Shown here one piece after another: positions 14,745 through 18,408 of a stretch of 19,599 bases of DNA. Position 1 is the stretch's first letter. Each line of letters opens with the position of its first letter. Made by a program: the position numbers and the translations under genes. Below the pieces are notes generated by a model. That model made no database searches. It was not told the origin of the DNA and was given only the letters and a program-made list of their open reading frames with translations. This DNA comes from an uncultured Pseudomonadota bacterium (GTDB taxonomy: Bacteria; Pseudomonadota; Gammaproteobacteria; Burkholderiales; SG8-39). The stretch lies in contig CAIVVS010000175.1 in NCBI GenBank assembly GCA_903909415.1, positions 1-19,599 of the forward strand, given 5' to 3'.

Positions 14745-15521
14745 ATGTTGCTCGCCGGATCGACCTGGAAGGAAGTGGAGGCCTACCTGCGCGAATCGCG
14801 CGGCGTGGTCGTGCCCATGGGATCGACCGAGCAGCACGGGCCGATCGGCCTGATCGGCACCGATGCCTACACCGCCGAGGCGGTGGCGCGCGGCCTGGGA
14901 GATCGCGTCGGCGCGCTGGTGGCGCCCACGCTGTCGCTGGGCGTGGCGCAGTTCAACCTCGGCTTTCCCGGGACCATCTCGGTGCGCGCCGCCACGCTGA
15001 TGGCGACCATCGAGGACCTGGTGCTGTCGCTCGCCGCGCAGGGCTTCGAGCGCTTCTACTTCGTCAACGGCCATGGCGGCAACGTGGCGCCGGCGCGCGC
15101 CGCCTTCCAGGACATCTACGCGCGCTGGAGCCTGGGCGAGCGCAGCGGCGCCGCGCCGCGCTGCCGGCTGCGCAGCTGGTGGGAGTACCCGGGCGCCGAC
15201 AGCTTGCGCCGCGAACTGTACGGCGCGGGCGAGGGCATGCATGCCACGCCCAGCGAGATCGCCATCACCCGCCATGCCCAGCCCGCGGCGTTCGGCCGCG
15301 CCGAGGGCAAGCTGCCCGCGCCGCCGGTGCTGTCGCCGGCCTACCTGCGGGACCATGGCGGGGACAACCACTGGGATGCGCAGTCCCACCGCGCCGCCTT
15401 CCCGGACGGGCGCGTCGGCTCGGACTCGGCGCTGGCCACGCGGGAGCAGGGTACGGCACTGCTGGAGGCATCCATTGCCGGCGCGATCGAGGACTACCGC
15501 GCCTTCCTGGTGGAACCCTGA
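14745..15521 (+). CDS. Creatininase-family metal-dependent amidohydrolase
   Basis: A 258-residue protein of the creatininase/creatinine amidohydrolase fold, which hydrolyses cyclic or linear amides using a metal pair. The family start is visible as STWKEVEAYL, then VVVPMGSTEQHGP with metal ligands E29 and H31, GTDAYTAEAVA with D40, and FVNGHGGN with H110. A further conserved stretch is GMHATPSEIAITRH. I used ATG 14745. A TTG at 14727 in the same frame would add six residues, but neither start has a strong ribosome site. It opens a plus-strand operon with redox and oxygenase genes, so hydrolysis of an amide or lactam in a catabolic route is plausible. The specific substrate is unknown. Confidence 0.9.
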   Translation: MLLAGSTWKEVEAYLRESRGVVVPMGSTEQHGPIGLIGTDAYTAEAVARGLGDRVGALVAPTLSLGVAQFNLGFPGTISVRAATLMATIEDLVLSLAAQGFERFYFVNGHGGNVAPARAAFQDIYARWSLGERSGAAPRCRLRSWWEYPGADSLRRELYGAGEGMHATPSEIAITRHAQPAAFGRAEGKLPAPPVLSPAYLRDHGGDNHWDAQSHRAAFPDGRVGSDSALATREQGTALLEASIAGAIEDYRAFLVEP

Positions 15522-15551
15522 GCGTGTCGAAATGAACATGGAGACCCGGGA

Positions 15552-16211
15552 ATGGGCCTGATCGTCTACGGGCTGGCGCTGTCCAGCTACAGCGCAAAGC
15601 TGCGCATCCTCCTGGTGAACAAGGGGATTGCCTTCGAGGAGCGGGAGCCGCCCGGCGGCAGCTACCGCTCCGAGGCCTATCGCTCCATCGTGCCCATGGG
15701 CACGCTGCCGGCGATCGACGACGATGGTTTCGTGCTGTCGGAGTCCGAGGTGATCGCCGAGTACCTGGAAGTACGCCATCCGACGCCCCGGATGCTGCCT
15801 GAGGCGGTGCGGGAGCGTGCGCATGCGCGCTTCCTCTCGCGGCTGCACGACCTGTATTTCGCGCCGGCGGTGCGCGGCCTGTTTCCCCACGTGAATCCCG
15901 CGAAGCGCGATACGGCTGCCGTCGCCGCGCAGCTTGCGGAGGTCCGCCGCCGCCTGTCGCAACTCGAATCGCTGGCGCTGCCCCGTCCGTACATCGCCGG
16001 CGAGACCCTGATGCTGCCGGATTGCGGCTTCGCGGTAAGCGTGCCGCTGGCGATGCAGTTGCTCGCGGTTTTCGGCGAGAAACTCGAGTTGTCCGCCCCG
16101 CTGCAGTCCTGGCACGACACGGTGCAGGCCCACCCCGCCGTGGTGGCGGGGCTGGCGCCATGGCAGGTCGCGACTGACCGCTGGCTGGAATCCCAACTGG
16201 AGGCCAAATGA
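15552..16211 (+). CDS. Glutathione S-transferase-like protein
   Basis: A 219-residue GST-fold protein. The N-terminal thioredoxin-like domain includes SSYSAKLRILLVNKGIAFEE, the cis-proline turn VPMGTLPAI (P53) and the glutathione-gamma-glutamyl-binding pair E64-S65 in LSESEVIAEYLE. The all-helical C-terminal domain covers about 85-210. It may conjugate, isomerise or reduce an intermediate with glutathione. The start has GGAG eight bases upstream. Its stop overlaps the start of the next gene by four bases (ATGA), so the two are translationally coupled. Confidence 0.9.
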   Translation: MGLIVYGLALSSYSAKLRILLVNKGIAFEEREPPGGSYRSEAYRSIVPMGTLPAIDDDGFVLSESEVIAEYLEVRHPTPRMLPEAVRERAHARFLSRLHDLYFAPAVRGLFPHVNPAKRDTAAVAAQLAEVRRRLSQLESLALPRPYIAGETLMLPDCGFAVSVPLAMQLLAVFGEKLELSAPLQSWHDTVQAHPAVVAGLAPWQVATDRWLESQLEAK

Positions 16212-16819: not shown

Positions 16820-16840
16820 CGCCACGGAGACACGACGCGC

Positions 16841-17425
16841 ATGAGCGCATGGATACGCATGATCCCGCTGGAGCAGGCCACCGGCCTGCTTAAGGACCTG
16901 TACGCCAAGGTCACCACCCCGCACGGCACGGTGGACAACGTGATGCGCGCGCACAGCCTGCGGCCGCACACCATGGAAGGCCACCTGGTGCTGTACAAGA
17001 GCGTGCTGCACAATCCGGACAACACGCTGCCGTTCTGGTTCCTGGAGGTGGTGGCGTCCTACGTCAGCATCACCAACCGCTGCGCCTACAGCCTGACGCA
17101 CCACTGGGCGAATGCCAGCCGGCTGATGGCCAACCCGGGCCGCGCCGCGGCGGTGCGCGCGGCGCTGGATGCCGGCAAGCCTGAGCTCGCGTTCGAGGGC
17201 AAGCAGCGCGCGCTGCTCGACTACGCGCGCAAGCTCACCGCAGCGGTGGGCGACATGGCGAAGTCCGACATCGACGCGCTGCGCGCCGCCGGCTGCGACG
17301 ACGGCGAGATCCTCGAGGTCAACCAGGTCTGCGCGTACTTCAACTATTCCAACCGGCTGCTGAACGGGCTGGGCGTCACCACCGAGGGCGACGTGATCGG
17401 CTATTACAAGGACAAGCAGCAATGA
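16841..17425 (+). CDS. AhpD / carboxymuconolactone decarboxylase-fold protein lacking the second catalytic cysteine
   Basis: A 194-residue all-helical protein. The core helix carries EVVASYVSITNRCAYSLTHHWA, which aligns with the ...N-x-C-x-Y-C-x-x-H-H... motif of peroxidase-related CMD proteins. Here C81 is kept, but the partner cysteine is S84; H87 and H88 remain. A disulfide-based peroxidase cycle would therefore not work as in AhpD, so it may be a decarboxylase, isomerase or use a single-Cys mechanism. It is coupled to the next gene through ATGA (four-base overlap at 17422-17425). Role within the pathway unknown. Confidence 0.85.
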   Translation: MSAWIRMIPLEQATGLLKDLYAKVTTPHGTVDNVMRAHSLRPHTMEGHLVLYKSVLHNPDNTLPFWFLEVVASYVSITNRCAYSLTHHWANASRLMANPGRAAAVRAALDAGKPELAFEGKQRALLDYARKLTAAVGDMAKSDIDALRAAGCDDGEILEVNQVCAYFNYSNRLLNGLGVTTEGDVIGYYKDKQQ

Positions 17426-18408
17426 ACTACGCCACCGCCCGCAACATCGCCGTCGAGCAGATCCCGGTGATCGACTGCGCGCCGCTGTTCGATGGCACGC
17501 AGGCTTCCATGGCCGCGGTCGGCGCGCAGATGCGCGAAGCCGCCGAGCGCATCGGCTTTTTCTACGTGAGCAACCACGGCATCCCCGAGGACCTGATACT
17601 GGGCGCCGATGCCGCCGGCCGCGAGTTCTTCGCGCTGCCGCAGGAGGCCAAGCTGCGCGTGGTGCCCGCCGACCGCCACCGCGGATTCCTGCAGGTGGGG
17701 CAGGCGAAGATGTACCGCAACGCCCGCGTGGACCTGAAGGAGAGCTTCATCTGGGGGCGCGATGTCGGCGAGGACGACCCGGACTACCTGGCCGGCAACC
17801 GCATGGTCGGCCCCAACCGCTGGCCGGCGGAGCTGCCGCGCCTGCGCGGCGTGCTGAACGCCTACTTCGATTCGGCCCACGCCTGCGCCCACCGGCTGCT
17901 GGGCGCGCTGGCGGTGTCGCTCGGCGCGCCGGCCGATACCTTCAACGCGCGCCTGGCCAAGCCGATTTCGCGCGGCACCCTGGTCTGGTATCCGCCGCAG
18001 CCGCCGGACGCGGGGGAGGACCAGTTCGGCGTCGCGCCGCACACCGACTATGGCGTGATCACGCTGCTGCGCCAGGACGAAGTGGGCGGCCTGCAGGTCG
18101 CCACCCGCGATGGCGAGTGGGTCACCGCGCATCCGATTCCGGGCACGCTGGTGATCAACTCGGGCGACCTGCTCGGGCGCTGGACCAACGACCGCTTCAA
18201 GTCCAACCCGCACCGCGTGGTGAACCGCTCCGGGCGCGAGCGCATGTCCATCGCGATGTTCGTGGACCCGGACTTCGACACGCCCATCGTGCCGGTGACC
18301 CAGCCGGGCGAGGCGGCGAAGTATCCCGAGGTGAGCTGCGGGGACTACATCCTCGGCCGCTTCGACGCCGCGTTCGCCTACCGGAACAGGCAGGATTCAC
18401 GCGGTTGA
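17422..18408 (+). CDS. Fe(II)/2-oxoglutarate-dependent oxygenase, isopenicillin N synthase family
   Basis: A 328-residue DSBH-fold oxygenase of the plant/bacterial IPNS-like class. The N-terminal DIOX_N region has IPVIDCAPL and ERIGFFYVSNHGIP. The iron triad is H207-x-D209 (APHTDYG) and H264 (SNPHRVVN), and 2-oxoglutarate is bound by R274-x-S276 (RMSIAMF). It oxidises a small molecule using O2 and 2-oxoglutarate in the cytosol. Such enzymes also serve pyrimidine, amino acid and aromatic catabolism, so the substrate is open. It is the last gene of the five-gene plus operon, followed by a GC-rich hairpin. Confidence 0.93.
   Translation: MNYATARNIAVEQIPVIDCAPLFDGTQASMAAVGAQMREAAERIGFFYVSNHGIPEDLILGADAAGREFFALPQEAKLRVVPADRHRGFLQVGQAKMYRNARVDLKESFIWGRDVGEDDPDYLAGNRMVGPNRWPAELPRLRGVLNAYFDSAHACAHRLLGALAVSLGAPADTFNARLAKPISRGTLVWYPPQPPDAGEDQFGVAPHTDYGVITLLRQDEVGGLQVATRDGEWVTAHPIPGTLVINSGDLLGRWTNDRFKSNPHRVVNRSGRERMSIAMFVDPDFDTPIVPVTQPGEAAKYPEVSCGDYILGRFDAAFAYRNRQDSRG

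Follow-up and report, generated by a model that had tools for sequence, protein, structure and literature searches.

The window analysed here, 19,599 nucleotides of DNA from an uncultured bacterium of the order Burkholderiales (contig CAIVVS010000175.1), contains a compact operon in which genes for a creatininase-family hydrolase, a glutathione S-transferase (GST) family protein, an HD-domain protein, a CMD-like protein and an Fe(II)/2-oxoglutarate (2OG) oxygenase follow each other on the forward strand (14745–18408). We judge it an even call that this operon belongs to a module that breaks down a small, polar, nitrogen-containing compound by a hydroxylate-then-cleave logic, in which the 2OG oxygenase would hydroxylate the substrate and the HD protein, a predicted diiron oxygenase, would cleave it. 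The conserved neighbourhood of the HD gene, its linkage to hydroxylase genes and the change of the hydroxylase partner on the tree of HD proteins support this reading. Hydroxylate-then-cleave logic is already known from PhnY/PhnZ and TmpA/TmpB; new are the HD clade, the exchangeable hydroxylase, the CMD-like partner and the likely non-phosphonate substrate. A first-pass annotation of the window had recognised no described pathway with these genes, and our literature search, which left most subscription papers outside its coverage, likewise found no description of the gene combination or of the HD clade.

The HD protein

No Pfam family matched the HD protein at E ≤ 0.001, and its scores against the NCBIfam equivalogs TmpB (31.3 of 300 bits), Phn-HD (30.0 of 214.6 bits) and PhnZ1 (21.0 of 300 bits) were all far below the cut-offs. 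The ligand set H...HD...H...H...D, a feature of HD-domain diiron oxygenases according to a 2020 review (PMC8177086), is nevertheless complete, and its residues (Table 1) are invariant among 33 aligned HD sequences, which have a mean column identity of 61%. In the fold ranking, the protein was nearer to PhnZ, TmpB and MIOX (myo-inositol oxygenase) than to HD hydrolases, with PhnZ and TmpB as the nearest HD structures; about 37 N-terminal residues fall outside the match to these two. MIOX is more distant (18% identity), with a Z score in the range flagged as doubtful for helical proteins, and inositol genes were not recognised beside the HD gene. Fold and ligands place the protein, for which O2-dependent activity is predicted, with the HD-domain oxygenases rather than the hydrolases, and agree with the PhnZ/MIOX likeness seen in the first-pass annotation.

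Database names such as 'predicted HD phosphohydrolase' suggest instead an ordinary nucleotide phosphohydrolase that came to lie in the operon by happenstance, the outcome on which the first-pass hypothesis was to fall. We consider this extremely unlikely and rejected it because of ligand set and fold: the diiron ligand set contains two extra His, the fold ranking favours oxygenases, and the position three residues before the first His is N68, invariant in the 33 sequences, and not the Arg that the review gives as typical of HD phosphatases (PMC8177086). The HD clade is common in databases, where 1357 of 1540 candidates matched at E ≤ 0.001, a number that may take in other HD groups; the best 120 listed relatives are 68–94% identical, and many of them carry phosphohydrolase names.

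PhnZ and TmpB share fold neighbourhood and ligand set with the window protein, and, as in PhnY/PhnZ and TmpA/TmpB, the HD oxygenase is accompanied by a 2OG hydroxylase. However, PhnZ and TmpB possess a YxxE substrate loop ahead of the first His and a further His directly after the HD dyad. In the window protein, an ungapped alignment with PhnZ places S61 and Y64 at the loop, and among the 33 aligned sequences position 61 is never Tyr and position 64 never Glu; a Y41-A-A-E44 motif occurs in the N-terminal helix, in a stretch that is not conserved. The His after the dyad is replaced by Phe or Tyr in the window clade. PhnZ and TmpB are enzymes of phosphonate breakdown, whereas the HD-linked importers are of an amino-acid type and phosphonate genes were not recognised in the loci examined, although these were not searched systematically. 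Because of the absent loop, the changed residue after the dyad and the unrecognised phosphonate genes, we rejected a phosphonate pathway as the most likely function and regard it as very improbable. Thus, from the first-pass proposal, which took C–P bond cleavage as precedent, the coupling of the HD protein to a hydroxylase held, whereas a C–P substrate found no support, the more so as some relatives lie in histidine-utilization clusters. The known chemistry of HD-domain oxygenases, of which the review counted three, two of them acting on phosphonates (PMC8177086), would become wider with a separate clade that has the diiron site but lacks the YxxE loop.

In two loci (L033, L039), the genes next to distant HD paralogues appear by reading to encode class II aldolase and SDR proteins, and an annotated plasmid-borne relative in Sphingobium baderi also adjoins a class II aldolase gene; these paralogues may form a further HD oxygenase-like group with a gene context of its own. 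Plasmid relatives were found in 14 records, all below 60% identity and none reaching 80% query coverage. Six of the 14 were examined; in the four annotated records, no CMD or IPNS-type 2OG gene stood beside the HD gene, and one of the four has, in the HD stretch, genes for an aldolase and a TauD/TfdA protein.

Conservation of the neighbourhood and exchange of the hydroxylase

We compared 30 HD loci including the window, 16 from named public genomes and the rest from a search with an HD profile; they stem from 28 carrier genomes, many of them incomplete metagenome-assembled genomes (L and G numbers are our labels for loci and genomes). Genes were called with our own open reading frame caller; it often places starts in the L loci too far upstream, which makes some gaps unreliable (L001, L004, L006, L008). 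The order substrate-binding protein, permease, creatininase, GST, HD, CMD is collinear in the Burkholderiales-type loci L001–L010 as far as the contigs extend, except for L009, which lacks CMD; L091 carries the four genes from creatininase to CMD but no importer. The CMD-like gene lies directly beside the HD gene on the same strand in 25 of the 30 loci, another feature that sets the clade apart from PhnZ/TmpB. In G1169 the two genes are 3.9 kb apart and on opposite strands, and the CMD-like gene was not found in L009, G1176b, G1155 and G1153, the latter three stretches ending less than 400 bases from the HD gene. None of 24 distant HD paralogues (L032–L055) had a relative of CMD, 2OG or VanA-type Rieske genes within about 1.5 kb or up to the contig end. 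Since the neighbourhood is conserved across phyla, chance association is excluded, and the failure of conservation that the first-pass annotation had named as a way to refute its hypothesis did not occur.

A hydroxylase gene is found in the HD stretch in 23 of the 30 loci, in likeness to the PhnY/PhnZ-type pair: a 2OG oxygenase in ten (including the window) and a VanA-type Rieske oxygenase in 14, L006 having both. This possible Rieske partner is a further difference from PhnZ/TmpB. Of the 28 carriers, 15 have a close Rieske relative (E ≤ 1e-140) and 13 a close 2OG relative (E ≤ 1e-120), by cut-offs that were chosen after the values were seen; 25 of the genomes hold at least one hydroxylase and G1153, G1439 and G1440 neither. 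In G1155, G1176 and G408 the HD locus lacks a hydroxylase, yet the genome has one at another site. When loci with neither or both hydroxylases are not assigned to a group, the partner type must have changed at least twice on well-supported branches of the HD tree (21 rows). The window protein falls into a group (support 96/91) of Burkholderiales rows, most of which have a Rieske partner; the placement of G1169, on a long branch, is unsure. Our main argument for linking the hydroxylase reaction to that of the HD protein is that one oxygenase type is exchanged for another beside the same HD–CMD pair. As either enzyme accompanies the HD protein, the hydroxylate-then-cleave logic lends itself to a test in which two unrelated enzymes carry out the first step on a single substrate.

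In the 2OG oxygenase, the HxD...H triad (H207, D209, H264) and R274-x-S276 are invariant among ten sequences. The Arg-x-Ser motif serves 2OG in Fe(II)/2OG oxygenases. The predicted model (predicted local distance difference test, pLDDT, 87.8) has as nearest folds 6jyv, an ancestral ethylene-forming enzyme (both 38% identical) and thymine 7-hydroxylase (31–33%). The window enzyme shares the intact facial triad and RxS motif with this IPNS/EFE/thymine 7-hydroxylase group but differs in being tied to HD clusters. PhnY and TmpA were not among the best 60 of 68 PDB matches (E ≤ 1e-10), their presence in the PDB not having been checked. The Rieske partner of the other lineages is of the VanA type (VanA_C, 138.5 bits), and its nearest PDB relatives are the Rieske protein 7qwt and dicamba O-demethylase, with NdmA lower in the ranking. 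Although this type, to which DdmC and NdmA belong, replaces the 2OG oxygenase in other HD lineages, none adjoins the HD gene in the window, whose own Rieske genes (3020–5552 and 9464–10609) are of other types or match VanA_C weakly.

The likeness to DdmC and NdmA also suits a pathway in which hydroxylase and HD protein act at different points: the 2OG or Rieske enzyme would remove an N- or O-methyl group, as in the degradation of caffeine (NdmA) or dicamba (DdmC), and the HD protein would cleave a later intermediate. The occurrence of SoxA in four (L003, L005, L011, L091) and of a desaturase-like hydroxylase (FADS) in seven of the 30 HD stretches fits such an arrangement. It leaves unexplained, however, why CMD stays with HD almost throughout even though the hydroxylase type is exchanged, and we consider it a doubtful, though serious, alternative to consecutive steps.

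Few related genomes carry a close HD relative (E ≤ 1e-60). With the centre genome counted each time, there are 3 among 399 in the G003 family, 4 among 53 in the G005 order, 1 among 293 in the G007 order, 11 among 52 in the G409 class and 1 among 248 in the G006 class. At E ≤ 1e-20 matches are more frequent, with 24 among 399 genomes in the G003 order, G003 included. G1176 has two HD copies in separate clusters (L108, L109); FADS and an ABC importer accompany one copy, and a substrate-binding protein, a permease and a GST relative the other. A gene for a Na/H-exchanger protein with TrkA domains, checked for L110 only, lies beside HD in three genomes (L110, 2079–4055; L111, 7195–9165; L112, 1001–2971).

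The CMD-like protein, further enzymes and the importer

The CMD-like protein is at least as conserved as the HD protein, with a mean column identity of 74% in 18 sequences, although the sequence sets differ. Like the AhpD-like 'peroxidase-related enzymes', it scores above the cut-off of TIGR01926 (96.4 versus 81.8 bits). The AhpD mechanism relies on disulfide chemistry of a CxxC motif. In all 18 CMD-like sequences C81-x-x-S84 is found instead, and E69, C81, S84, H87 and H88 are invariant; because the second Cys is an invariant Ser, AhpD-type disulfide chemistry is unlikely.

The creatininase-family protein scores below the cut-offs of creatininase, MftE and IolN (59 of 245 bits for the latter), and its copies in HD loci are 52–61% identical. 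GST copies (49–53% identical) immediately precede the HD gene in all ten loci L001–L010. In L114, a gene of the AMDase family (4219–4986) directly follows HD, CMD and 2OG, and its product perhaps stands in for GST as isomerase.

The substrate-binding protein has cyclohexadienyl dehydratase (5kkw, 224 bits) as its closest relative in the PDB and recurs near HD in L001–L003, L006–L010, G1158, G1169, G1175 and G1176b. The permease exceeds the cut-off of the HEQRo permease domain TIGR01726 (95.7 versus 42.2 bits), and copies in L001–L003 and L005–L010 are 63–69% identical. For the ATPase, the GlnQ-type score is below the equivalog cut-off of 379 bits (Table 1), and the ATPases in HD loci L003, L004, L005, L006, L014 and L015 are 67–72% identical.

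Candidate substrates and proposed pathway

The HD-linked importers are of the polar amino-acid type, and histidine utilization genes (hutC/hutF) lie near HD in seven of the 28 carriers. In four genomes of one gammaproteobacterial order (G005, G009, G808, G811), HD, CMD, Rieske, hutC and hutF are co-directional with short gaps, and more hut genes follow; hutC and hutF in G1158 and hutF in G1152 and G1155 are 2–4 kb from HD. Curated cut-offs were exceeded by HutF and HutC of L110, HutG of L089, HutH of L065 and HutC, HutF and HutU of L016. SoxA or SoxB was found in six stretches, L062 and L066 (the latter by blastp and reading only) in addition to the four with SoxA near HD, and FADS relatives (E ≤ 1e-60) are present in 16 of the 28 carriers. 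Together, importers, hut linkage and SoxA or the desaturase-like hydroxylase suggest an N-methylated histidine derivative, and our tentative first choice of substrate class is a histidine-derived, perhaps N-methylated compound. The hut-linked clusters supply a short list of candidate compounds. Mycosporine-like amino acids and inositol-like rings, considered from the MIOX likeness and the IolN match, were set aside once the hut genes appeared. Our literature search found no paper on genes of homarine catabolism, a further candidate that was considered, or on a gene cluster of this kind for ergothioneine, hercynine or methylhistidine.

As a special case, ergothioneine, hercynine or another N-methylated histidine could be the substrate, with hydroxylase, HD and CMD (and GST) attacking the imidazole or its sulfur, the desaturase-like hydroxylase and sarcosine-oxidase-type enzymes stripping the methyl groups, and the histidine entering the Hut pathway. 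The hut, FADS and SoxA/SoxB counts are in its favour. On the other side, hutU was not found in 11 of the 28 carriers, no sulfur gene was recognised, none having been searched for, and FADS is weak or missing in G1158, G1152, G1155, G1169 and G1175, the most window-like group, which also speaks against N-methylated histidine derivatives in general. We consider this special case rather unlikely.

In the module as we picture it, the amino-acid-type ABC importer would bring the substrate in, and the 2OG oxygenase would hydroxylate it; in other lineages, where gene order indicates a replacement, the VanA-type Rieske oxygenase would take over this reaction. We infer that this step and the HD step are consecutive. 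The HD protein, by its fold and ligands a mixed-valent diiron oxygenase, would then use O2 to cleave a C–X bond at the hydroxylated carbon, probably C–N, C–C or C–S and not C–P. An outside reductant would not be required, assuming that the protein behaves like PhnZ, TmpB and MIOX; the review states that HD-domain oxygenases need no external reductant (PMC8177086). The close pairing suggests that the CxxS CMD-like protein may act on the HD product. The weakest step is the last, in which creatininase and GST family proteins might hydrolyse or isomerise later intermediates.

Several observations weigh against this picture. Neither hydroxylase was found in the HD stretch of seven of the 30 loci (L007, L009, L010, G1176a, G1176b, G1155, G1153), and L009 and G1176a are not merely cut next to HD. 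Both hydroxylases occur together in three of the 28 genomes (G001, G003, G408). When loci with none or both are given a label of their own, the changes for 2OG on the HD tree are inflated to four; two remain otherwise. The hutU gene was found in just 17 of the 28 carriers (4 of 14 control genomes), many carriers being incomplete; it was not found in G008, G409, G1172, G1174, G006, G007, G586, G1155, G1153, G1437 and G1438, nor in any of the four genomes with the order FADS-2OG-ABC-HD-CMD. A histidine product therefore cannot be general. Neither the window nor the Burkholderiales loci examined showed a hut gene. It is with considerable doubt that we propose a fourth functional class of HD oxygenases, which would cleave a C–N, C–C or C–S bond in a histidine-derived, possibly N-methylated compound, with interchangeable 2OG and Rieske hydroxylases and a near-constant CxxS CMD-like partner, in a pathway spread over Pseudomonadota, planctomycete and deltaproteobacterium-labelled genomes.

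Gene layout and flanking genes

The five genes, their order and two 4-base ATGA overlaps (GST/HD at 16208–16211, CMD/2OG at 17422–17425) were located exactly as in the first-pass annotation, with families assigned by Pfam and NCBIfam. The remaining intergenic gaps of the five-gene set are 30 and 21 bases, and an alternative TTG start of the creatininase gene is possible at 14727. The module exceeds five genes: an amino-acid-type ABC importer (12282–14626) lies immediately upstream, its ATPase gene inverted between the permease and creatininase genes.

Table 1. Genes of the module in the window.
Feature	Position	Strand	Evidence
ABC importer substrate-binding protein, amino-acid/cyclohexadienyl-dehydratase type	12282–13076	+	Pfam SBP_bac_3, 102 bits
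ABC importer permease, polar amino-acid family	13058–13873	+	Pfam BPD_transp_1, 112 bits
ABC importer ATPase, divergent from operon	13889–14626	-	GlnQ-type, 318 bits
Creatininase-family hydrolase	14745–15521	+	Pfam Creatininase, 192.7 bits
Glutathione S-transferase family protein	15552–16211	+	Pfam GST_N_3, 56.6 bits
HD-domain diiron oxygenase (predicted), separate clade	16208–16819	+	Ligands H71, H95, D96, H106, H129, D168
CMD/AhpD-like protein, C81xxS84 replacing CxxC	16841–17425	+	Pfam CMD, 29.3 bits (cut-off 23); TIGR01926
Fe(II)/2OG oxygenase, DIOX_N/2OG-FeII_Oxy type	17422–18408	+	Pfam DIOX_N, 99.7 bits; 2OG-FeII_Oxy, 94.1 bits

A scan of the window for promoters and terminators was uninformative, because the 0 promoter-like and 2 terminator-like sites compare with 0.5 and 2.4 in shuffled sequence. 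A crotonase-family gene (18480–19394, reverse strand) is convergent with the operon; relatives of this gene were not seen next to HD in the loci checked for it. On the other side of the module, genes for a GntR regulator, a DHDPS-like and an ornithine-cyclodeaminase-like protein, two Rieske oxygenases, a HIBADH-like dehydrogenase and two TctC-type binding proteins (78–8424, forward strand) form a second oxygenase-rich cluster together with those for a third TctC protein, a third Rieske protein and an amidohydrolase (8464–12133, reverse strand).

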